From NCBI GenBank assembly GCA_945915065.1, contig CAMEER010000007.1:1-59999 (forward strand): a stretch of 59,999 bases of DNA, read 5' to 3'. The notes beneath the pieces were generated by a model. The model worked only from the letters and a program-made list of their open reading frames with translations. It had not been told where the DNA came from and ran no database searches. Numbering within the stretch: the first letter of the stretch is position 1; every line of letters starts with the position of its first letter. The position numbers and the translations under genes are program-made. Origin of the DNA: an uncultured Clostridia bacterium. GTDB lineage: Bacteria; Bacillota; Clostridia; Oscillospirales; Oscillospiraceae. This document shows, piece by piece, positions 16,468 to 28,134 of this stretch.

Positions 16468-16493
16468 GATTATGTGTTTGAAAACACATAATC
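16468..16493. promoter_or_regulatory. Perfect palindromic operator between zinc-ribbon operon and XRE gene
   Basis: Two 12-base arms (16468-16479 and 16482-16493, GATTATGTGTTT and its complement) flank a 2-base centre with no mismatch. It lies 25 bases upstream of the zinc-ribbon operon start and within the promoter region of the divergent regulator, whose -10-like TAGATA/TATAAT lies at 16502-16511. Size and symmetry suit a dimeric XRE repressor. Confidence 0.75.
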
Positions 16494-16578
16494 ATATCTG
16501 TTAGATATAATACTATAACTAAAAACTCATGTCAATTACTTCGCATTTCCGATACCATACTGTCGGGAGTTGATGCTT

Positions 16579-16812
16579 ATGAAGGAACAGTACGCGGACA
16601 AATATTTACAGCTGGGATTGAAGATCGCTTATTATCGCAAACTGCGGGGGCTGACGCAAGAACAGTTGGCGGAGGAGCTGGGTCGCAGTCCGGCATTTAT
16701 CGGCCATGTGGAAGCGCCCAACATCAATAAAGCCATCTCGTTGGACACTCTGTTCGGCATCGCGGAGGTGCTCGACGTACCAGCCTATAAGTTCCTGCTG
16801 TTTGATGAATAG
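16579..16812 (+). CDS. XRE-family transcriptional regulator
   Basis: A 77-residue protein that is almost entirely one lambda-Cro-type helix-turn-helix: IAYYRKLRGLTQEQLAEEL, then SPAFIGHVEA and ISLDTLFGIAEVLDVPAYKF. GGGAG at 16565-16569 fits the ATG at 16579; an ATG at 16573 is also possible. It has no sensing domain, so it is a simple DNA-binding repressor or activator. It is transcribed away from the zinc-ribbon trio across a perfect palindrome, its probable operator. It ends with its own terminator 111 bases before the amidoligase gene. Confidence 0.9.
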   Translation: MKEQYADKYLQLGLKIAYYRKLRGLTQEQLAEELGRSPAFIGHVEAPNINKAISLDTLFGIAEVLDVPAYKFLLFDE

Positions 16813-16870
16813 TGGGGCGCACGGTTTTCCGATTTTCCTCCATCCTCGGGATATGTACTATATCAGTGAA

Positions 16871-16901
16871 GGCCTCCGGGTAATTCCCGGGGGCCGAATT
16901 T
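16871..16901 (+). terminator. Terminator after the XRE gene
   Basis: GGCCTCCGGG (16871-16880) pairs with CCCGGGGGCC (16886-16895), with one G-T pair and a TAATT loop, followed by GAATTTTATA. It lies 58 bases past the XRE stop and just ahead of the amidoligase start. Confidence 0.6.
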
Positions 16902-16923
16902 TATACTATGGAGGAATATCACC

Positions 16924-18024
16924 ATGACGACATCCCAACCCTGTACCTGTGCCCACTGCGGTGCCGCCGATGCCGAGCTTACCGAGTTCAATGGACGGGT
17001 TTACTGCCCGGTTTGCCTGGATGCCCTGACGCTTGTTTGCACCGATTGCGGGACACGTTTTCTGCGCAGCAGGAACTGCAGCGAAAATGATGCGTTCCCC
17101 GTCTGCCCTGACTGCTACAACCGTAATTACACCCACTGTACCCGCTGCGGAGCACTCATCCACACCAATGCCTGCTACTACCCTTATGACAACGATGACC
17201 CCTACTGCCAGAGCTGCTGCAGGGAGATCGACAGCTACGCCATTCATGAGTATGGCTATAAGCCCGAGGCCATCTTCTATGGGCAGGGAGACCGTTTCTT
17301 CGGTGTCGAGCTGGAGATCGATGGCGGCGGAGAATACACCGATAACGCGGAGAGTATCCTCGGCATCGCCAACCGGGAGCAAAACCTGATCTACTGTAAG
17401 CACGACGGCAGCCTTGACGAGGGCTTTGAGATCGTCACCCACCCCATGTCATTGGCCTTCCAGCTGCATAAGATGCCCTGGCAGGCGGTGCTGCAGCGAG
17501 CCATCGCCATGGGCTACCTCTCCCACCAGGCGGGCACCTGCGGCCTGCATGTTCATGTGTCCCGGGATGCCTTCGGCGATACCGATGATGCCCAGGACAA
17601 GGCCATCGCCCGGGTGCTGTTCTTTGTGGAGCGGCACTGGAACGAACTCCTGCGGTTCTCCCGCCGCAGTCAGCGCCAGATGGACCGTTGGGCGGCCCGC
17701 TACGGCTATCGGGATCATCCGGATGAGATGCTGGAGCATATCAAAAAGGGCTATGGCAACCGCTATACCTGCGTGAATCTCACCAATGAGAATACCGTGG
17801 AGTTTCGCATGTTCCGCGGTACGCTGAAATGGAATACGCTCATCGCCACATTGCAGATGGTCAACAGGATCTGCGATGCGGCGATTTATTTGCCTGATGA
17901 GGAACTGCGGAGTTTGTCATGGAGCAGCTTCGTTAGCGGTATCACAGAGCCGGAGCTGATCCAGTACCTGAAAGAACGGGATCTCTATATCAACGAGCCT
18001 ACGGAAGGGGAGGTGGAGTTCTGA
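16924..18024 (+). CDS. Amidoligase (COOH-NH2 ligase) with N-terminal zinc-binding region
   Basis: A 366-residue member of the amidoligase family related in fold to glutamine synthetase; such enzymes form amide bonds using ATP. Residues 7-99 hold at least six CxxC-type pairs (PCTCAHC, YCPVC, VCTDC, VCPDC, HCTRC, YCQSC), so a multi-ribbon zinc module precedes the catalytic domain. The catalytic part shows FFGVELEID with E129 and E131, KHDGSLDEGFEIVTHP (159-174), CGLHVHVSR with H209 and H211, and the late NTVEFRMFRGT. GGAGG precedes the ATG. The stop overlaps the start of the glutamine amidotransferase gene, so ammonia or a glutamine-derived amine is the likely co-substrate. Its target, small molecule or protein, is unknown. 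Confidence 0.88.
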   Translation: MTTSQPCTCAHCGAADAELTEFNGRVYCPVCLDALTLVCTDCGTRFLRSRNCSENDAFPVCPDCYNRNYTHCTRCGALIHTNACYYPYDNDDPYCQSCCREIDSYAIHEYGYKPEAIFYGQGDRFFGVELEIDGGGEYTDNAESILGIANREQNLIYCKHDGSLDEGFEIVTHPMSLAFQLHKMPWQAVLQRAIAMGYLSHQAGTCGLHVHVSRDAFGDTDDAQDKAIARVLFFVERHWNELLRFSRRSQRQMDRWAARYGYRDHPDEMLEHIKKGYGNRYTCVNLTNENTVEFRMFRGTLKWNTLIATLQMVNRICDAAIYLPDEELRSLSWSSFVSGITEPELIQYLKERDLYINEPTEGEVEF

Positions 18025-18932
18025 TGTGCTGCCTGTTTGGGATCTACGATTACAGAGGCAGCCTGACCGCCTCACAGAAGCGGCGGCTGCTCTCTGCTCT
18101 GGCCACGGCCAGCGAAGCAAGAGGCACTGACGCCACCGGCATCGCGTATAACAGCAGCGGCCGTTTGGCCATCTATAAGCGGCCTTGGCCGGCCCATCTG
18201 ATGCGGTTTCGCCTGCCGGAGGACACACGTTGCATCATGGGCCATACGAGGATGACCACCCAGGGGGATGAGAAGCACAACTTCAATAACCATCCGTTTC
18301 CCGGCATGGCGGATATCCCCTTTGCGCTGGCCCATAATGGTGTTCTCTATAATGATAAGGAGCTCCGCAGGGAAAAGAAACTGCCTGCCACGAAAATTGA
18401 GACAGACAGCTATGTGGCGGTGCAGCTGCTGGAGCAGCAGGACAAACTGGGATTCTCCGCTATCCGCCGGATGGCAGAGGCACTGCAAGGCACCCTGACG
18501 CTGACGATCCTGGATGGGAGAGACGATCTCTACATCGTCAAAGGGAACAACCCTATGACCCTGTACCACTTCCCCCAGTTGGGGTTGTACGCCTATGCCA
18601 GCACCGAGGCCGTTCTAAAGAAGGGCTTAAAGAAAGGGTTGGCCCGTGCAGAGCGCCCGGTGGAGGTGGAACTGAACGAGGGGGAGATCCTGCGGATCGA
18701 CCGGCAGGGCCGCCGCAAGGTGGAGACCTTCAACACCGAGAACCTTTACGATAGCCGGTTTCTGTTCGGCTGGCTGAAGCTGAGTTGCGGCGGAGGCAAC
18801 GATGGATATGTGCGGGAGCTGAAGTCCATTGCCGGAGTGTATGGCTACACGGCAAAGGATGTGGATACCTTCCTCTCCTATGGGATGTATCCGGAGGAGA
18901 TCGAGGAGATCATGTGCTGTGGGGAGGTATAA
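18024..18932 (+). CDS. Class II glutamine amidotransferase (Ntn hydrolase)
   Basis: A 302-residue enzyme expected to hydrolyse glutamine and free ammonia. The protein starts MCCLFGIYD, so removal of Met exposes the nucleophile Cys2. Other class II marks are RGTDATGIA (33-41), MGHTRMTTQG (72-81, like GHTRWATHG of GlmS and PurF), NNHPF (88-92) and LAHNGVLYND (102-111), the oxyanion and glutamine-binding loops. There is no synthase domain; the last ~100 residues are unassigned. It overlaps the amidoligase stop by one base (TGATG). The obvious reading is a two-subunit, glutamine-dependent amide-forming enzyme. Confidence 0.9.
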   Translation: MCCLFGIYDYRGSLTASQKRRLLSALATASEARGTDATGIAYNSSGRLAIYKRPWPAHLMRFRLPEDTRCIMGHTRMTTQGDEKHNFNNHPFPGMADIPFALAHNGVLYNDKELRREKKLPATKIETDSYVAVQLLEQQDKLGFSAIRRMAEALQGTLTLTILDGRDDLYIVKGNNPMTLYHFPQLGLYAYASTEAVLKKGLKKGLARAERPVEVELNEGEILRIDRQGRRKVETFNTENLYDSRFLFGWLKLSCGGGNDGYVRELKSIAGVYGYTAKDVDTFLSYGMYPEEIEEIMCCGEV

Positions 18933-18934
18933 GC

Positions 18935-19321
18935 GTGAGAGTCGTAATTGTTGAAGGAGGTAAGAAACCCTATGAGATGGAACTGGAAAACAGCCTTGCA
19001 GCTATGCAGCATTGTGTTGGCGGTCTTGTGGAAAGTGTGTACGAGCGGGGAGGACCCGGACAGTGTGCGCTGATCTGCAATGGCGAGGGCAAGCTGCTGG
19101 GCCTGCCGCTGAACCGTGCGCTGCGGGATGAGGAAGGGCAGATCTATGATGTGATTGCAGGCACGTTCTTCATCTGCGGTGCGCCGGAGGACAGCGAGGA
19201 CTTCACATCTCTGACCGACGAACAGGTGGCCTACTGGCTGAAGCGGTTTGCCAAGCCGGAGTTCTTTGTCAGCGTTAACGGCAAGCTGATCTGCGTCCCC
19301 GTGGAGGAGGCGGGAGCATAA
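18935..19321 (+). CDS. DUF3846 family protein
   Basis: A 128-residue protein starting with GTG at 18935 after GGGAGG, two bases beyond the amidotransferase stop. The sequence matches the DUF3846 pattern: an N-terminal VVIVEGGKKPYEMELENSL, then VGGLVESVY, CNGEGKLLGLPLNRALR and YDVIAGTFFICG. The family is common on mobile elements of Firmicutes and has no known function. Tight coupling to the amidoligase and amidotransferase suggests the three act together. It might be a substrate, carrier or immunity-like partner, but nothing in the sequence decides this. Confidence 0.85.
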   Translation: MRVVIVEGGKKPYEMELENSLAAMQHCVGGLVESVYERGGPGQCALICNGEGKLLGLPLNRALRDEEGQIYDVIAGTFFICGAPEDSEDFTSLTDEQVAYWLKRFAKPEFFVSVNGKLICVPVEEAGA

Positions 19322-19327
19322 AGAAAA

Positions 19328-19369
19328 AGGACAGACGAGGAATGCATCAAAACACTCTTCGCCTGTCCT
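19328..19369 (+). terminator. Probable terminator after the amidoligase cassette
   Basis: AGGACAG at 19328-19334 pairs with CTGTCCT at 19363-19369. Pairing continues inward with mismatches around a loop of about 15 bases. It lies 6 bases after the DUF3846 stop. A second inverted pair, GGCCAG/CTGGCC, follows in 19458-19490 and may serve the convergent gene. Confidence 0.45.
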
Positions 19370-19517
19370 ATTCTCTTCAGCAGTCATATCATACAAGAAA
19401 AGATAACCGATTGCCCTGTATTCATTTCGTATCCTCAAAAAACGATGCCTGTGTTCGGCCAGCCTTACTTACTTCGTAAACGTCTGGCCGAAAGGCCTCT
19501 ATGCTTACCTCACACAG

Positions 19518-21686
19518 TCATCCTTTTTCGAGGTGGTCTTCTTGTGTTCCTTTATATAGAAAAACCACCCTGGAAAAGTTTTCAGTTTTTGTAAAAGCAG
19601 AGAGATGCAGACCATGGACTTTATCAACGGCTTTGAACAGAGCTTTCAGTGCATTCTCTCTTAAATGGAGCCGCATCATCGTTTCGCAAATCATCAGTCG
19701 GAGTTCCTGACGGTTTTCATTGGTGCGTTTATTTTTCATTTCAATCGGGATTGCATTGGTATTTTGCTGATCGGGACAGTTCTCAAATCGGCAGATGTCC
19801 GGAAGTACAAAGCAATCCAGATCGACCTTTTTGAAGAGAACAGAGATGCCAGTGTCGGCCTTTAGGTCAGCTGAAAACAAAAAGTACCGCTCTCTGGAAC
19901 TGATGCCGCGGCCTGTCCAGAGTTCTATATATAATCGTGCATAGGCTTCCATATCTGACTTGACCGTCTGATATAGGGAAAGAATCGCATCCGTATTGCC
20001 GCGCAGAAAACACAGATATGTCTCATACGGAACAGCCCGGACGGATCTGCGAGCCAGGTCATGGTAACAAGGGGGAAGGCAAGTTATTCCGTATTGGAAC
20101 GCTTTCAGTTGTATTCCCATCTGGGGAATGCGTTCATATCCGCATTGAGCGGCGAACTCACTCCATAGCCGAATCTCTGCTGAAGATTGCCACTGTGTGC
20201 CATATAGATATAAGAATTTGTTCAAGGTGTCCGCTGTTTCGGGGTCGGACAGGCACAGAGTATGGCAAAGATCTTTTATCAACTGTAAGAGTGCAAGACG
20301 CTGCTCGCTTTTTGGTATGTTCCCAGGAAAGTAGGCCTCAGGAATGTAGGGGCGGCGCCGTAAGTCAACGTCTGCAAGTTCAAACTGGTTCAACAGCAGC
20401 CTGCGTTTATATATGCCGAGCAGGACAATGATTCGAATGGGAATTTCTTCCTTGGCAAACGTCCGGAACAGCCAGCGAATATAACCGCACAGGTGTTCGG
20501 TGTGGAGGGAAGATGCACTTGCCACACCGACGCTGCGAAGGAAAGCAATGATTCGTAATGCGACAGGCGTTACCATATCACTCGACATAGACGCAGCATG
20601 GGACAGGTCCTCCGGATAAGGCACTGCCCATCGAAAATAATCGGAGTCCATCGCTTTGGCTGTGCGGGAGGCACATTGTCCCGCGGCTGCAAAGAGCGAT
20701 TCCAACTGCGACAGCCGCCGCTGCATCCCTGCAACATCGTGGGCGGCAGGATCACAGACCTGCGGAGGATGCGACTTTATCAATTCACGCTCATAGACGC
20801 CGTGGATACAGGGGAGAAGCACGGTATTGAGAAATGCGGAACGAAAGGATGGGTTTCTGGCAAAAGCAGCGGTTGTACCATCACATTCTTTCAAGAGTTG
20901 CCGGTAGGAACGCGCCAGCTTCGCATCTGACAGAATGTGCGTATAGTTGATCTTCTTTTCCTGGCGAACCCACTGGGGAATGTCTCTCAAACGCAGCTTA
21001 ACATGCTGTTGGATAAGGTCGATGCGCAGTTTTTTGATCTCACGGGATTTTGAACCGGCCAAATGCTTATTGGCGTATAGCCACTGAAAGACGCTCCTAT
21101 TCTTGCGCTCGGCATTGATGCGGTCAAATAAAACTTCTGCGGCGCGGACGGCACCGCTTTTTTCAGCGCTTTCTCCGGTAGCTTTCATCCATTCCTTTGA
21201 AAAAGCAGTCATTGCCGCATCGGTATCCCAGACCCGCTTTTTTGATGTTTGGAACCACTCTTTATTCAGCAGATTATCGCGAGAGGCAATGTCGTAGTCA
21301 TAAAAAAGAGCGCTCTGATCGGCCAAAAGCTGCAAAAAACTATTGCCGGGCTCTATACCGCGGGGAAGGCGCACCACGTTCCGGGCCAAAAGAAACGCGG
21401 TTTTATTTGCCAGCAATCTCTCATATCCGCCGGAGGTGGAAAAGGTAAACGGAAATGCGGACAGAAATGCTTCTTGCAGCTCGGAAATGCGCGTGATCGT
21501 GTTAACTGGCGGCTCTTGATCTTCCGCGGTACCGTCTGGCAACTTGGCAAGATTGGGGGTTCTGGGAACCAAAGCATAAAAAGAAGGGTCGCTTGAATTC
21601 TTATCTTCCTTTGATTTCAAAGGAAAATCGGAACAACTATGGAAAATATTTCCATTTTCTGCTGTCTGGTTTTCAAAATCAGTCAT
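19518..21686 (-). CDS. Hypothetical protein, 722 residues
   Basis: I do not recognise this protein. It is 722 residues, rich in charged residues and leucine, predicted mostly helical, with no signal peptide, clear membrane helix or P-loop. The first ~60 residues are polar and low in complexity; the rest looks like one or two large helical domains. AGGA lies ahead of the ATG. It is divergent from the 487-residue gene at 21788 across about 100 bases, and convergent with the amidoligase cassette. Its place beside helicase, excisionase and integrase genes suggests a role in the element's own life cycle or in defence. Both are guesses. Confidence 0.7.
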   Translation of the reverse strand: MTDFENQTAENGNIFHSCSDFPLKSKEDKNSSDPSFYALVPRTPNLAKLPDGTAEDQEPPVNTITRISELQEAFLSAFPFTFSTSGGYERLLANKTAFLLARNVVRLPRGIEPGNSFLQLLADQSALFYDYDIASRDNLLNKEWFQTSKKRVWDTDAAMTAFSKEWMKATGESAEKSGAVRAAEVLFDRINAERKNRSVFQWLYANKHLAGSKSREIKKLRIDLIQQHVKLRLRDIPQWVRQEKKINYTHILSDAKLARSYRQLLKECDGTTAAFARNPSFRSAFLNTVLLPCIHGVYERELIKSHPPQVCDPAAHDVAGMQRRLSQLESLFAAAGQCASRTAKAMDSDYFRWAVPYPEDLSHAASMSSDMVTPVALRIIAFLRSVGVASASSLHTEHLCGYIRWLFRTFAKEEIPIRIIVLLGIYKRRLLLNQFELADVDLRRRPYIPEAYFPGNIPKSEQRLALLQLIKDLCHTLCLSDPETADTLNKFLYLYGTQWQSSAEIRLWSEFAAQCGYERIPQMGIQLKAFQYGITCLPPCYHDLARRSVRAVPYETYLCFLRGNTDAILSLYQTVKSDMEAYARLYIELWTGRGISSRERYFLFSADLKADTGISVLFKKVDLDCFVLPDICRFENCPDQQNTNAIPIEMKNKRTNENRQELRLMICETMMRLHLRENALKALFKAVDKVHGLHLSAFTKTENFSRVVFLYKGTQEDHLEKG

Positions 21687-21787
21687 TTTGCAATCCTGCC
21701 TTTATTCAAAGTTTTTTCATGGGAAGTGTGGTTAAATTGTCACAGCTCGAGCCGAGATTTGATCAACAAGAAAGGAAGAACTTTTCT

Positions 21788-23251
21788 ATGAAAAAAACGA
21801 CATACATAATCCGTGTCGGGGGTGCGCATCGGCTGCGCTTCACTGCCACCGAGGGCAAAGACAATGCCATTTTAACTCCTACCACAGCTGTCGTCAAGGC
21901 AGATGACCGCATCAAACTGACCGCCAAGGGGGACAAGCTGGGCAAAAAAGCCTCGCGCAAGGCGCTTCTCCAGCTACTTGACTTCCCAAACCAAGTCATG
22001 GAGCCACGGACTGGTGCGCAGCTGGTTTCATTGGCTTTGCTGGCACAGGTGGCTCCGCTGTATGCAGCACAGGGACTCACACCCTTGCCGGCGGTTTACG
22101 TCACTGGCGCGCTTCGGATCCCCGATGCGGTAAGCGATGTGCTCCGGGCCATGCAGGGGAAGGAGCGATGGTCAGGCGATGAGTGGCATCTGCGCCGTCC
22201 CTGGACGCTTCGGACGCTGATCCCTGTGGGTGCGGCAGCTCCGGAGAATGCCGCCGTAAAATACGTGGGTGGCAAAGCGACACAGATTTACGGCAGACGC
22301 ATGAAATTTTGGGCCCCGTATTCGGGCTGCGCAGTGGCGTTCGCGCCAGACCTGCCGGCCTCGGTGCGTCGGGAAATCCTGAAAGCTTCACCGCTGATGA
22401 TACCGATTACAGTCTCTGCTGGTGACCGGCCGATTTCGGTGAAGCTGGCGGCCAATGACTTGGTCTACCGTGCTTCGGACGACATCCCGACGCTTCGGGA
22501 TGCCTCACCGGTGGTTCAGCGGTTCGTCCGCTGGCTGGAAAAAGGCGACCACGCACAGCGATGGGTGGATGCTATCCGTGCCAATGGTGGCGGGCGGTCC
22601 TACTCTGTAACGCAAGGCGAACGCGAGTTGTGGTGCGCGGTGCTATCTCTGGTGACGCTGTTCCTGGACTGGACAGTTCGCAAGGCTGGGTTTTTGACTG
22701 AGGCGGAATCAAACGCCTTGGAGAGACAGTATGTATTCTGGCTTGGTTCGGACGGCCCGAAGGATCCGAGTGCGGGTGCGGTGGATCTATGTCAGGCGAG
22801 TGCGTTCTACACCTTCCTGCGGGATTATCTCCGCGAGAACGCGGCCCACGTTACAGAGAAGTCCGGTTGTGCCGACACCGTTGCACGAATCCACGTGGTC
22901 AACAGAATGGACCCCAGCCTGACACTGCCGAGAGAAGTGACCTTCCGGGCCTACGCGGCTGGAAGGACTGCGCCAGAAGATGTTGACCTCCAGCGGGCGT
23001 TGATGACGGCCGGCATCCCATTCCGAACAGAGGGAAAGGATACCTCATGGCGCTACGCTTTCTACGCCAAGGGTAAAGCCCCAAAGGGCCAACCTGAAAA
23101 GCTGCCTTGTCTGAGTATGCCACTCGTTGAACTGCCGCTTGAGGTGCAGAGCGAACTCGTAAAGCTGTTCGGAGACCGATTCGGCAGCCTCCTCTCCCAT
23201 TTGGGAGAGGAGAGCGGCGCCGAAGCAGAGAACGGGGGTGAAAATCAATGA
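21788..23251 (+). CDS. Hypothetical protein, 487 residues, coupled to the helicase
   Basis: I do not recognise a family. I chose the ATG at 21788 because GAAAGGAAG is upstream; the longer frame from 21593 would overlap the divergent gene at 21686. The N-terminus has a small beta-looking domain (YIIRVGGAHRLRFTATEG), followed by a basic stretch (KADDRIKLTAKGDKLGKKASRKA). The middle is alpha-beta, with RRPWTLRTLIPVG and GERELWCAVLSLVTLFLDW. No catalytic motif is evident. The stop overlaps the start of the helicase gene by four bases, so the two are translated together and probably work together, for example as primase or loader with helicase. Confidence 0.72.
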   Translation: MKKTTYIIRVGGAHRLRFTATEGKDNAILTPTTAVVKADDRIKLTAKGDKLGKKASRKALLQLLDFPNQVMEPRTGAQLVSLALLAQVAPLYAAQGLTPLPAVYVTGALRIPDAVSDVLRAMQGKERWSGDEWHLRRPWTLRTLIPVGAAAPENAAVKYVGGKATQIYGRRMKFWAPYSGCAVAFAPDLPASVRREILKASPLMIPITVSAGDRPISVKLAANDLVYRASDDIPTLRDASPVVQRFVRWLEKGDHAQRWVDAIRANGGGRSYSVTQGERELWCAVLSLVTLFLDWTVRKAGFLTEAESNALERQYVFWLGSDGPKDPSAGAVDLCQASAFYTFLRDYLRENAAHVTEKSGCADTVARIHVVNRMDPSLTLPREVTFRAYAAGRTAPEDVDLQRALMTAGIPFRTEGKDTSWRYAFYAKGKAPKGQPEKLPCLSMPLVELPLEVQSELVKLFGDRFGSLLSHLGEESGAEAENGGENQ

Positions 23252-25380
23252 AAAAGCCTGTATTGACAACGGTTCCGCCGGATGCGGTATCCGCTGCTTC
23301 GGAGGATCGGACGGTTCGGGAAGGGGGAGAGTTCACGCAGCTGCGGCTCCGTGCAGAGGATGACCCTCAGCGGCTTCACGGTCGGGTGATGGAGGTGTTG
23401 GATCATTTATTTTCTACACGCAGGACAACATATTTATCTGGCCAACGAGATGCACTGGCCTGTATCGTAGATGCTGTCTTGGATGACAGTCGCCAGGGCA
23501 TCTCGGCTGTCCCGCTTGTTCCCGGCGGCGGCAAATCGACGCTGCTGCGGGCGCTGCTGACGGTGTTTGCGGCGGTGTTCCGAGACATGTCCAACCCTAT
23601 CGCCAAACGGTTGGGCGGAGTGATCGTGGTGGTGGAAAAGACGGCGGAAGGCGAGGAACTGGAAGAGCTGTGCAACTGCGGGCTTGAACCGGACGAACCT
23701 CCTGTGGCCTGCCTGATCTCATCGGTGAACGAGTATCATCTGCGGAAAGGACGCTGTCTGACCGGTGAAGCCAAAACCTACGCGGAGTGCCCACGTCGTG
23801 CCTGCCGGGAAGCGGCTAATTGCCCACTCCTACAAGCTATGGGGCACCTGGGAGAAACCCCCATCCTCATTCTGCTTCACGCCCGTCTGGCAGAGCATTT
23901 GCCCGACCTGACGCCCTTCACCTCGTGGTGCGAAGCAGACGGCACCGAGCATCACCGCTCGCTGCTGCTCATCGATGAAGCGCCCGAGTTGGTTCGGCAG
24001 GATGTGGTTTCTGCGGAAAGCCTTAACGATGCGGAGAATGAGCTGCTATCCATGCGGTCCAGCTACAGTTGGCAAGACCGTCAGGTGAAGCAGCGGGTCA
24101 TCGAAAGCTTCAACCACGCCCTTCGTATTCCATTTTGCCGGTTGCAACGATATAAGCATAGCGGAACCCGATGTTCGGCTCTGTTCAGCGCCTCGGAGAT
24201 GGAGCAGGCGGGCTTTAAGTGCGACAGCTTACAGGAACTGCTGGCTCGGCTGGAGGAATACCAGGCGCCGCGTTCCTGTAAGGCAGGCAAGCTGACGACG
24301 GGATTGCTGACCGAAAACGGGAAAGTGTTCAATTTCGGCAAGAACTTCGGGGTGGCTACGCCTTCACTTCACACTATTCGGGCTGACACGCCGCTGCGGA
24401 CGTTCATCTTCAGTGGTACCGCGCAGCTGATACCTCAACTGGCAGACAATCCCAAGGTTACCATGCTGGATACTGGTTTCCATGAGTCCTACGGTCGCCT
24501 GACCATCCATGTACAGCGTGATGGTGCACTGAAGACCTCCCGTACCGGTCTGCAAACAGCCGGTGTGGTGGAGGCGCTGGTGCTTTGGCTGCAGGTGCTG
24601 TTGCCGGAACTGTCTCAAAGCCACGGACGCGTGTTGTTGGTCACGTACAAGCGGATGGCACGGCGGATCTGGGAGCTGCTTGACGACGAGTGCCGGGAAC
24701 TGGTGTTCACCGCCGTCATCCCGGAAAGCGGCGAGATCTGTCTGCCGTACTTTGGCGGCGTGGCCGGCAGCAATGATTTCCGTGACGCCACAGCGGTGGT
24801 TTGCCTGGGACTTCCCCGATTGGAGCCGGGGGACTATCTGTACCGGGCGCTGGCTGTTGATCCGGGCGGTTCTCACGCGGAGGAACTATCCCACGCCGAC
24901 GGATCCCTTGAACAGCAGCCATGCGTCCTGAATGCGCAGGACATCCACCTGGCGCACGAACTGGTGCAGATGGTGTTCCGCTCTCGCCTGCGCTGCCATG
25001 GGGACATTGTCCCCATAGAGCTGTGGCTCACCCAGCCACCGGACGCCGTGCTGACCCTGCTGGGGAACTACTTCGGGGACTGTCGCTTCGAGAAACACAA
25101 TACCCTCCCTGCGGAGTGCCATTCGATGCTGCATATCTGCAAGCAGCGAAACGGTATTCGGACGAATGCGGCACGGCTCTATGAAGTGTTGCTGGCGGTT
25201 CCGGATGGGGTCGAGACCACGCCAGCGCTGCTCAGAGAGCAGTCCGGTTTGACGCGGGACCAGTACAAAGAGGCTATACGTGCCGCATCCGTACAGACAC
25301 TTTTCCGCACCGAGTTTACCACCTTCGGATCCGGCAAAAACCAGAAAATCCGTCGGATCCCAGCTATAAAAGTCGCATAA
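23248..25380 (+). CDS. SF2-type helicase/ATPase with cysteine cluster (XPD/DinG-like)
   Basis: A 710-residue P-loop ATPase. Walker A is PGGGKST at 92-98 and Walker B is LLLIDEAPEL with DEAP at 243-246, in place of DEAH. Between them lie C170, C181, C186 and C192, the position where XPD/DinG helicases hold an iron-sulfur cluster. A second RecA-like half follows, with TFIFSGTAQ, GRVLLVTYKRMARRIWELL and FGGVAGSNDFRDATAVVCLG. The last 100 residues look like a winged-helix region (LLREQSGLTRDQYKEAI). It overlaps the 487-residue gene and precedes the excisionase and integrase genes. It is probably the element's replication or transfer helicase; a defence role is possible. Confidence 0.75.
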   Translation: MKKPVLTTVPPDAVSAASEDRTVREGGEFTQLRLRAEDDPQRLHGRVMEVLDHLFSTRRTTYLSGQRDALACIVDAVLDDSRQGISAVPLVPGGGKSTLLRALLTVFAAVFRDMSNPIAKRLGGVIVVVEKTAEGEELEELCNCGLEPDEPPVACLISSVNEYHLRKGRCLTGEAKTYAECPRRACREAANCPLLQAMGHLGETPILILLHARLAEHLPDLTPFTSWCEADGTEHHRSLLLIDEAPELVRQDVVSAESLNDAENELLSMRSSYSWQDRQVKQRVIESFNHALRIPFCRLQRYKHSGTRCSALFSASEMEQAGFKCDSLQELLARLEEYQAPRSCKAGKLTTGLLTENGKVFNFGKNFGVATPSLHTIRADTPLRTFIFSGTAQLIPQLADNPKVTMLDTGFHESYGRLTIHVQRDGALKTSRTGLQTAGVVEALVLWLQVLLPELSQSHGRVLLVTYKRMARRIWELLDDECRELVFTAVIPESGEICLPYFGGVAGSNDFRDATAVVCLGLPRLEPGDYLYRALAVDPGGSHAEELSHADGSLEQQPCVLNAQDIHLAHELVQMVFRSRLRCHGDIVPIELWLTQPPDAVLTLLGNYFGDCRFEKHNTLPAECHSMLHICKQRNGIRTNAARLYEVLLAVPDGVETTPALLREQSGLTRDQYKEAIRAASVQTLFRTEFTTFGSGKNQKIRRIPAIKVA

Positions 25381-25678: not shown

Positions 25679-26974
25679 ATGGCCAGTATCAGAATGCGTA
25701 ACGGGGCGTATCAGATCACCGTATCATGCGGATATGATGTCAAAGGGAAAAAACTATTGGAGACAACGACATTTACGCCGGATCCAGCAATGTCGCCCAA
25801 GAAGCAGGAAAAAGCGGCTAAGGAGTTCGCGGTTCTCTTTGAGCAGAGAGTCAAAAACGGTCTTGCCATGGACGGGCGCAAGATCACACTGGAGGAGTTC
25901 GCTCATCGCTGGCTGTCAGAATACGCGGAAGTGAACTTGCAGCCGGGGACGGTGTGGAAGTACCGCGAGGAGCTGCGCGATAAGATCTTGCCGGCCTTGG
26001 GTCATTTAAAATTGACTGAGATCCGACCCCATACACTGAACAGCTTCTACCTGTCCATGCGGAAGGAGGGGGCACGCAAGGATGGTAAAAGCGGCGGTTA
26101 TAGCCGTGCGACGATCTGTAAGACGCACAATGTGCTTTCCTCTATCCTGCGTACAGCCGTGGAGTGGGAGCTGATTGAACGAAATCCCTGCAACAATGTG
26201 AAACCTGCCGCCGCACCGGACACCGCAGAGAACATCAAGTTTTTTACACCGGAGCAGACGATGGCTTTCCTGCACTATATCGAGCAACCGCACACATGGG
26301 AGGTAAAAGGTCATCAGCGTACTGATGACACAGGGATCCCCTACATGGTTGGGGCGTACATAAACCAGAAGCGCGTCAGTCGCCAACTGCAAGTGTTGTT
26401 CAGCCTGGCAATTTACAGCGGCATGCGCAAGGGTGAGCTTTTGGCGCTGAAATGGTCGGACATCGACTTTGCTGCCGACACAGTGAGCGTCACAAAGGCG
26501 GTGACCATGGTGGCGGGCAAGCCGTTTATCAAGGCGCCAAAGACGAAAAGCTCCTACCGAACTGTTACCATTCCCCATACTCTGACGGTGCAGCTTAAGC
26601 AGCTGCACGAAAGCCAGGAGGAATACCGCCGGAAGGTCGGTGATTATTGGAAAGGTGAGGACTTTCTGTTTATTCAGGAGGACGGTCGCATGATGAACTA
26701 TTCAACACCGTATCATGCCCTGCAAACGATCATTGCACAGTATAATACCGACCACGATCCCGAAAATCAGCTGCCGCGCATCCCGTTCCATGGACTTCGG
26801 CATACGTCTGCCACGTTGCTGATTTCGGAAGGCCATCAGGACCCACGCACAGTGGCCAATCGCCTGGGCCATGCCCAAACATCGACCACATTGAACATTT
26901 ACACCCATGCCCTACGGGATGGTGACCGCCGCGCAGCATCGGCTCTGGAAAACATTCTTGAACCGAAGGAATAG
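25679..26974 (+). CDS. int: Tyrosine recombinase / integrase
   Basis: A 431-residue site-specific recombinase. It has an N-terminal arm-binding domain (MASIRMRNGAYQITVSCGYD), a SAM-like core-binding domain at about 70-170, and a complete catalytic domain. Visible catalytic residues are R250 (SGMRKGELLALKW), a lysine near 288-290, H371 and R374 (FHGLRHTSATLL), H398 (RLGHAQTST) and the nucleophile Y408 (NIYTHAL). AAAGGAGGAAGG precedes the ATG. Nothing is missing, so it should be active. It is the last gene of the helicase-excisionase-integrase module and is followed by a strong terminator. Confidence 0.95.
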   Translation: MASIRMRNGAYQITVSCGYDVKGKKLLETTTFTPDPAMSPKKQEKAAKEFAVLFEQRVKNGLAMDGRKITLEEFAHRWLSEYAEVNLQPGTVWKYREELRDKILPALGHLKLTEIRPHTLNSFYLSMRKEGARKDGKSGGYSRATICKTHNVLSSILRTAVEWELIERNPCNNVKPAAAPDTAENIKFFTPEQTMAFLHYIEQPHTWEVKGHQRTDDTGIPYMVGAYINQKRVSRQLQVLFSLAIYSGMRKGELLALKWSDIDFAADTVSVTKAVTMVAGKPFIKAPKTKSSYRTVTIPHTLTVQLKQLHESQEEYRRKVGDYWKGEDFLFIQEDGRMMNYSTPYHALQTIIAQYNTDHDPENQLPRIPFHGLRHTSATLLISEGHQDPRTVANRLGHAQTSTTLNIYTHALRDGDRRAASALENILEPKE

Positions 26975-27992: not shown

Positions 27993-28025
27993 TCGCGATT
28001 TTTCTGCAAGGGGAAATAAAACAAG

Positions 28026-28058: not shown

Positions 28059-28134
<76 letters not shown>

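Follow-up and report, generated by a model that had tools for sequence, protein, structure and literature searches.

A near-obligate pair of amidoligase and class II glutamine amidotransferase genes on mobile elements, probably encoding a glutamine-dependent amide synthase

A stretch of 59,999 nucleotides from an uncultured Clostridia bacterium of the Oscillospiraceae (contig CAMEER010000007.1 of assembly GCA_945915065.1; hereafter the window) encodes an amidoligase (AML) followed at once by a glutamine amidotransferase (GAT). Together these two proteins probably make up a two-subunit amide synthase that depends on glutamine and travels on mobile elements. A third gene, encoding a DUF3846 protein, lies directly downstream in the window. 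The genes as read are as follows:

16924 to 18024, plus strand: AML, an amidoligase of 366 aa with three tandem Cys4 (CxxC..CxxC) zinc-type modules at residues 9-98 and a glutamine-synthetase-fold ligase domain at residues 120-356
18024 to 18932, plus strand: GAT, a class II (N-terminal nucleophile, Ntn) glutamine amidotransferase of 302 aa with catalytic Cys2 and C-terminal helices at about residues 239-299
18935 to 19321, plus strand: the DUF3846 protein, 128 aa, with a GTG start at 18935; an optional neighbour outside the core

All three open reading frames (ORFs) are intact and point in the same direction. The stop codon of AML and the start codon of GAT share one nucleotide (TGATG, 18022-18026), and 2 nt separate GAT from DUF3846, so that the overlapping or touching genes and intact catalytic motifs described in an earlier, sequence-only reading of this DNA were confirmed. 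Family membership was clear by Pfam, with scores of 33.1 bits for Amidoligase_2 (PF12224; cut-off 22) on AML, 49.9 bits for GATase_6 (cut-off 27) on GAT and 120.8 bits (cut-off 27.5) on the DUF3846 protein. The genome holds a second copy of the three genes on a different contig, with 73% DNA identity over 16828-19308; the matching block begins 5' of a leader hairpin described below and stops some 10 bases short of the end of the DUF3846 gene, its stop codon. The phage scaffold MT839723 (locus L003), from the human gut, matches at 74% over 16851-19308, and its DNA is 87% identical to the region of the upstream regulator gene of the window over 16481-16743.

Conservation of AML was examined in 50 close relatives, which remained of 60 when 10 distant or truncated sequences were set aside. 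Residues E129, E131, D161, E169, H209, H211, N285, E293 and R295 were conserved in all 50, and the same nine were invariant in an alignment of 47 sequences. Structure comparison placed the AML model in the glutamine-synthetase fold, the VIA-align table spanning residues 120-356. In the listed alignments with the superfamily of YbdK, gamma-glutamylmethylamide synthetase (GmaS), glutamine synthetase and PafA, identity to AML was 9-16%, and the triple N-terminal zinc module fell outside the aligned ranges. AML residues 59-363 also matched PHROG 16683, for which no function is annotated, at E 3.5e-87.

For GAT, residues C2, G73, H74, R76, N105, G106 and D128 were conserved in 49 of 49 relatives (shorter GAT pieces were left out), and C2, H74, R76, N105 and G106 were invariant among 29 aligned sequences. 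The structural model (m6d339fee6e19) has a predicted local distance difference test (pLDDT) score of 90, and Foldseek matched it to PurF (1ao0, E 1.1e-14) and to the glutaminase of GlmS (1xff, E 1.1e-13). The Cys2 nucleophile, the motifs and the modelled fold all indicate a class II glutaminase of the GlmS/PurF type. Profile scans of GAT itself found no synthase domain. At L176 (5906-6784) and similar viral loci, GAT bears a C-terminal cysteine-rich, zinc-ribbon-like tail, as judged by eye.

The pairing of the two families was then counted in three samples: 394 genomes of the host's order, drawn evenly; a neighbourhood set of 60 AML loci, among them records of named phages and plasmids and a single viral contig (L018); and a viral set consisting of the best 80 of 515 relatives, several of them near-duplicates, from a profile search that gave 573 candidate stretches of a viral collection. 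AML was found in 30 of the 394 genomes and GAT in 31. All 30 AML genomes contained GAT, as against 1 of the 364 others (Fisher-tested), and that extra genome holds a GAT fragment. A GAT homologue lay downstream on the same strand in 58 of 60 AML loci, the two without being L017, which ends at a contig end, and L005, a Clostridioides difficile plasmid. The gap did not exceed 330 nt in 57 of these loci; in L091 it was 616 nt, with one ORF between. On viral contigs, where adjacency was defined as the same strand and a gap below 1 kb, GAT was adjacent in 64 of the 79 loci that reach 500 bases downstream. Pairwise distances within AML and within GAT were strongly correlated (r = 0.90, 47 loci), compared with r = 0.69 for AML and DUF3846 (19 loci) and r = 0.31 for AML and a neighbouring resolvase (26 loci).

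Tight adjacency and co-divergence therefore argue for a functional unit of two genes, and by these comparisons the core is AML and GAT rather than all three. The near-strict pairing on clostridial elements, put in numbers, is new here. The sequence-only reading had proposed counting how often the three families occur together: the amidotransferase accompanies the amidoligase nearly always in the close family and mostly on viral contigs, and DUF3846 usually does not. Its view of the pair as a glutamine-dependent, amide-forming system gains support from the co-occurrence and from folds of the right kind. As for copy number, several genomes hold more than one amidoligase match (five each in G325 and G110, three each in G259 and G231), and one 22.7-kb viral contig carries two amidoligase copies (L106 and L109, the latter being the same place as L018 of the neighbourhood set).

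From the folds and the partner rule we infer a two-subunit glutamine-dependent amide synthase; the genes, folds, active sites, near-obligate adjacency and co-divergence are observed, and the reaction and the hand-over of ammonia are what they would imply. GAT, through Cys2, would hydrolyse glutamine to release ammonia and would pass it to AML. AML would activate a carboxylate with ATP, upon which ammonia would form the amide. Free glutamate seems a less likely target than a precursor of the cell wall or some macromolecule. Conversion of a carboxylate to an amide shifts the mass by about -1 Da. Of the two shifts that the sequence-only reading had offered as signatures, minus 1 Da is thus the one expected, and plus 17 Da is not. 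With a clear predicted chemistry (glutamine in, amide out) in a defined two-gene unit, the proposal is easily tested. Members of the family are common among phages and mobile elements, with 515 relatives among 573 viral candidate stretches and a presence in 30 of 394 host-order genomes.

Several observations weigh against a glutamine-dependent synthase. The best Foldseek match of the AML model was GmaS, with PafA also listed, and the amine need therefore not be ammonia; the closest folds include YbdK as well as GmaS, and both of these enzymes use amines other than ammonia. One AML clade of 8 tips, which includes the C. difficile plasmid copy, has neither GAT nor zinc modules, so AML may be able to work without GAT, on free ammonia or on another amine. 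At L119 and L152 GAT alone is missing, and it is split or short in some other loci (L068, L088, L013). Finally, the literature searches yielded predictions for the family, and neither an activity measurement for any member nor an experimental function. Amidoligases lacking both zinc modules and an amidotransferase were noted at L005 (5051-7860) and at six viral loci (L143, L149-L151, L153, L158).

Pairs of this type have already been predicted or annotated in phages, namely those of the phiEco32/LUZ24 type, mycobacteriophage Marvin and the OM43 phages. Marvin (gp105/gp106) and the OM43 phages MEP401/402 carry the same amidoligase and class II amidotransferase families in the same order, and in Marvin and MEP401 the amidotransferase is directly downstream on the same strand, as in the window. 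The Marvin amidoligase is 28% identical to AML in alignment, and gp105 has fewer zinc-type cysteines than AML, as judged by eye; DUF3846, DUF960 and the leader hairpin were not found in the Marvin and MEP401 loci. As far as the relevant passages of PMC3890496 and PMC5498523 go, the podophage 'peptidoglycan modification cassette' (phiEco32, LUZ24, RIO-1, UFV-P2) combines Amidoligase_2 and a class II amidotransferase with an ATP-grasp enzyme, a second ligase and a gamma-glutamyl cyclotransferase. The window shares the amidoligase and class II amidotransferase with the phiEco32/LUZ24/RIO-1 cassette; ATP-grasp and gamma-glutamyl cyclotransferase genes were absent among the five window neighbours scanned (16.5-27 kb). 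The pair MurT-GatD is an analogue by its division of labour and not a relative, since AML has the glutamine-synthetase fold and GAT that of class II enzymes; the glutaminase GatD belongs to the class I amidotransferases. In the portion of PMC6085368 concerned, MurT-GatD is described as a separately encoded ligase and glutaminase, the ligase MurT having a Mur-ligase fold with a Cys-rich insertion.

As to the target, amidation of peptidoglycan precursors, at the alpha-carboxyl of D-Glu or at meso-diaminopimelate (mDAP), is a tentative possibility; the altered wall would then block other phages or lytic enzymes (superinfection exclusion). Passages in PMC5498523, PMC10580990 and PMC11318856 offer this as a guess for phage cassettes of the phiEco32/RIO-1 type, and in such passages, too, host-wall alteration by the phiEco32/LUZ24/RIO-1-type cassette is a hypothesis. 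Glutamine-dependent enzymes that amidate walls are described, in the parts concerned, for MurT/GatD (PMC6085368) and LtsA/AsnB (PMC7920481, PMC8554201). Against this, no ATP-grasp enzyme, gamma-glutamyl cyclotransferase or Mur ligase was recognised by eye among the recurrent neighbour clusters of the relatives, and none appeared in a Pfam tally of 66 neighbour proteins, hand-picked from 330 candidates of at least 170 aa, with 25 of 54 families viewed; small or rare genes would escape such a tally. In two phages the pair sits amid early or replication genes (in MEP401 these include a primase and a helicase, and in MW202733 an integrase), a placement that is not specific for wall enzymes. A cell-wall target, if true, would make the pair a common superinfection barrier.

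Modification of a host or element protein, or of another macromolecule, in counter-defence or take-over, with the zinc modules picking the target, seems rather unlikely to us, but several associations agree with it. The zinc array is LIM-like, DUF3846 recurs in the neighbourhood and is known here from two fusions with ArdA, an antirestriction protein, and DNA methylases occur among the neighbours (3 of 66). On the C. difficile plasmid L005 the gene next after AML encodes the RNA-repair protein RlaP, and an RNA 2'-phosphotransferase is annotated about 4.5 kb upstream of AML. Neighbours of the antirestriction type would point to host take-over or counter-defence. Each of these lines, however, argues from association; matches to LIM domains were weak (E 1e-4 to 0.1), and cysteine spacing alone may explain them. 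None of the three cassette proteins matched a family among the defence profiles of PADLOC 2.0.0, with E values up to 0.1 admitted, and membership in a catalogued anti-phage defence system was rejected on this result. A protein target, if true, would be a new modification. A more elaborate version, in which the LIM-like triple array finds a target that is amidated with ammonia from glutamine when the element comes into a cell, neutralising a defence or surface function, with expression gated by the leader hairpin and DUF3846 as an optional adaptor, is speculative and quite unlikely; were it true, it would represent a new kind of counter-defence chemistry.

The twelve zinc-type cysteines themselves are well kept, at each position in 48 of 48 or 50 of 50 sequences. 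A role of the zinc module as a docking site for GAT, an idea taken from the Cys-rich insertion of MurT, was considered and dropped, since zinc modules and GAT are mostly lost separately. Among 137 scorable loci of 140, scored as zinc-bearing with at least three CxxC motifs, 113 had both features, 10 had neither, 6 had zinc modules only and 8 had GAT only; the six zinc-only loci include two contig ends (L017, L127) and one broken gene (L129). Parsimony on a tree of 129 tips, from which duplicates, contig-end or broken loci and fragments were left out and for which at least two CxxC motifs were required, required 5 changes in the zinc character and 3 in the GAT character. On our reading, the two were lost together once, zinc by itself four times and GAT by itself twice. 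Because the changes on the tree are mostly separate, no docking is claimed.

That GAT is a separate hydrolase, removing a gamma-glutamyl or amide group while AML ligates another amine, is improbable. The fold neighbours GmaS and YbdK, with their amines other than ammonia, would suit such an arrangement, and in the passage concerned PMC5498523 groups the phage amidotransferase with degradation genes. On the other hand, GAT keeps its glutamine-site signature (C2, R76, N105, G106 and D128 in 49 of 49), and with their tight pairing and co-divergence the two proteins look more like parts of one enzyme.

A functional unit of three genes, with DUF3846 as substrate or modulator as the sequence-only reading had it, is highly improbable: in 20 of 60 loci DUF3846 does share the strand of AML and lie within 2 kb of it, directly after GAT in 6 of these, but it was not found near AML in the other 40 or in any of the 80 viral loci, and its position varies (10 upstream, 10 downstream, 4 of the latter beyond the six that follow GAT). 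Genome counts, the only counts used for DUF3846 in the genome sample, placed it in 98 of 394 genomes, comprising 14 of the 30 with AML and 84 of the 364 without (Fisher p 0.007); 84 of the 98 DUF3846 genomes thus gave no AML match. In two AML-free examples, antirestriction proteins of related bacteria (L183, 1751-3544; L184, 1902-3659), the domain is fused between ArdA and LPD18/DUF4316. DUF3846 as a core gene was rejected on the locus and genome counts and the ArdA fusion; it is an accessory gene, present on some of the elements that carry the pair, and not a component of the enzyme. Its enrichment in AML genomes and moderate distance correlation leave room for a looser role. A search of solved-structure sequences with DUF3846 gave no match.

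Upstream of AML and downstream of DUF3846, the following transcript signals were noted:

16856 to 16861, plus strand: -10-like box TACTAT, found by eye; similar boxes stand ahead of most of 15 leader hairpins, also by eye
16871 to 16895, plus strand: leader hairpin, GC-rich with a T-rich tract, attenuator-like; the stem ends 28 nt upstream of the AML start codon, fold z -4.05
16910 to 16914, plus strand: Shine-Dalgarno-like GGAGG of AML, found by eye
19328 to 19369, plus strand: hairpin after the DUF3846 stop, a possible transcript end; z -4.38 for 19318-19385

A sigma-70 consensus scan reported no plus-strand promoter at the TACTAT box, and a consensus terminator scan did not call the hairpin at 19328-19369 a terminator. 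In the window alone the consensus scan gave 3 terminator-like sites against a shuffle mean of 2.1, which is no excess, and the claim for the leader is therefore made from the comparison with relatives. Among close-family leaders with the required 120 nt upstream, a hairpin with its stem end 45-20 nt before the start was found in 15 of 51, whereas none of the 51 had one in any of 20 rounds of shuffling, and all 15 stem ends actually lay at 24-28 nt (the window, L003, L010, L012, L049, L052, L053, L055-L057, L059, L079, L081, L083 and L090). A looser first scan, accepting a hairpin anywhere in 170 nt, gave 17 of 58 loci; the stricter figure is the one used here. The remaining 36 of 51 AML leaders have no such hairpin, and ten of those loci have one before DUF960 instead (L069, L070, L074-L076, L078, L080, L085, L086, L088). 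In a related scan a hairpin preceded AML in 13 of 53 cases, DUF960 in 10 of 15, DUF3846 in 5 of 16, GAT in 0 of 49 and other genes in 8 of 661.

The stems vary in sequence, with changes on both sides in 3 of 6 predicted pairs, counted on 14 sequences in an alignment that is imperfect and does not keep the same register in every row. A terminator-like leader hairpin heading the operon, kept in position while its sequence changes, is new here. An Rfam search with the leader gave one match only, far below the gathering score. The overlapping stop and start codons, together with hairpins that head AML or the operon but not GAT, fit a single transcript, and the placement of the hairpin just after the -10-like box, as seen by eye, suggests that it stands at the very 5' end of that transcript. 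The leader hairpin would be expected to limit or time expression of the operon, possible roles being attenuation, stabilisation or insulation.

The wider setting in the window is marked by three further features:

16570 to 16812, plus strand: regulator of the HTH_3 family (Cro/C1-type helix-turn-helix, HTH) upstream of the cassette, by Pfam
25679 to 26974, plus strand: tyrosine integrase of the presumed mobile element (Phage_integrase, 1.7e-24)
28059 to 28134, minus strand: tRNA-Thr(ggt), close to where the element presumably ends on the right and beside the start of a match to a congener

The match to the congener's chromosome begins at 28014, and the boundary is weakly shown, as the congener's contig stops 67 bases further on. 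No direct repeat of at least 12 bases was found between 12.6-19.5 and 26.8-28.5 kb, no convincing second copy of the tRNA end was found elsewhere in the window, and the left end of the element was not found in the window. The cassette in the window is probably on mobile DNA. For the earlier proposal of carriage on a mobile element, the integrase, the edge of the congener match by tRNA-Thr and the mobile-type neighbours speak in favour, and the attachment repeat and the left end are the parts that were not recovered.

Across the relatives, the 66 neighbour proteins included D5-type primases (9), coupling proteins (2) and a relaxase (1), and HTH proteins were also among the neighbours of the pair. 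In 15 of 60 loci the gene immediately upstream of AML encodes a DUF960-type protein, and a small serine resolvase lay near the pair in 27 of 60, both clusters being named from one member each by Pfam. Twenty-five of the resolvases are listed at distances of up to 3.5 kb, and the usual position is 1.1-1.6 kb downstream of AML (L009, L011, L015, L018, L050-L052, L054, L058-L062, L065, L066, L068, L071, L073, L075, L077-L079, L081, L082 and L084). Given this proximity and yet the low distance correlation, it looks as if the pair had repeatedly landed at resolvase-linked sites. With resolvases, DUF960, HTH proteins, primases, methylases, coupling proteins and a relaxase as neighbours, the pair fits accessory cargo of varied mobile elements.

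Between the cassette and the integrase of the window lie three larger genes:

19518 to 21686, minus strand: 722-aa protein, no Pfam match
21593 to 23251, plus strand: 552-aa protein, no match in Pfam, PHROGs, PADLOC or NCBIfam
23248 to 25380, plus strand: 710-aa protein, no match in Pfam, PHROGs, PADLOC or NCBIfam; a P-loop-like GGGKST was seen by eye

The 710-aa protein gave no match among solved-structure sequences, and it was found in 3 of 120 genomes, its own included.

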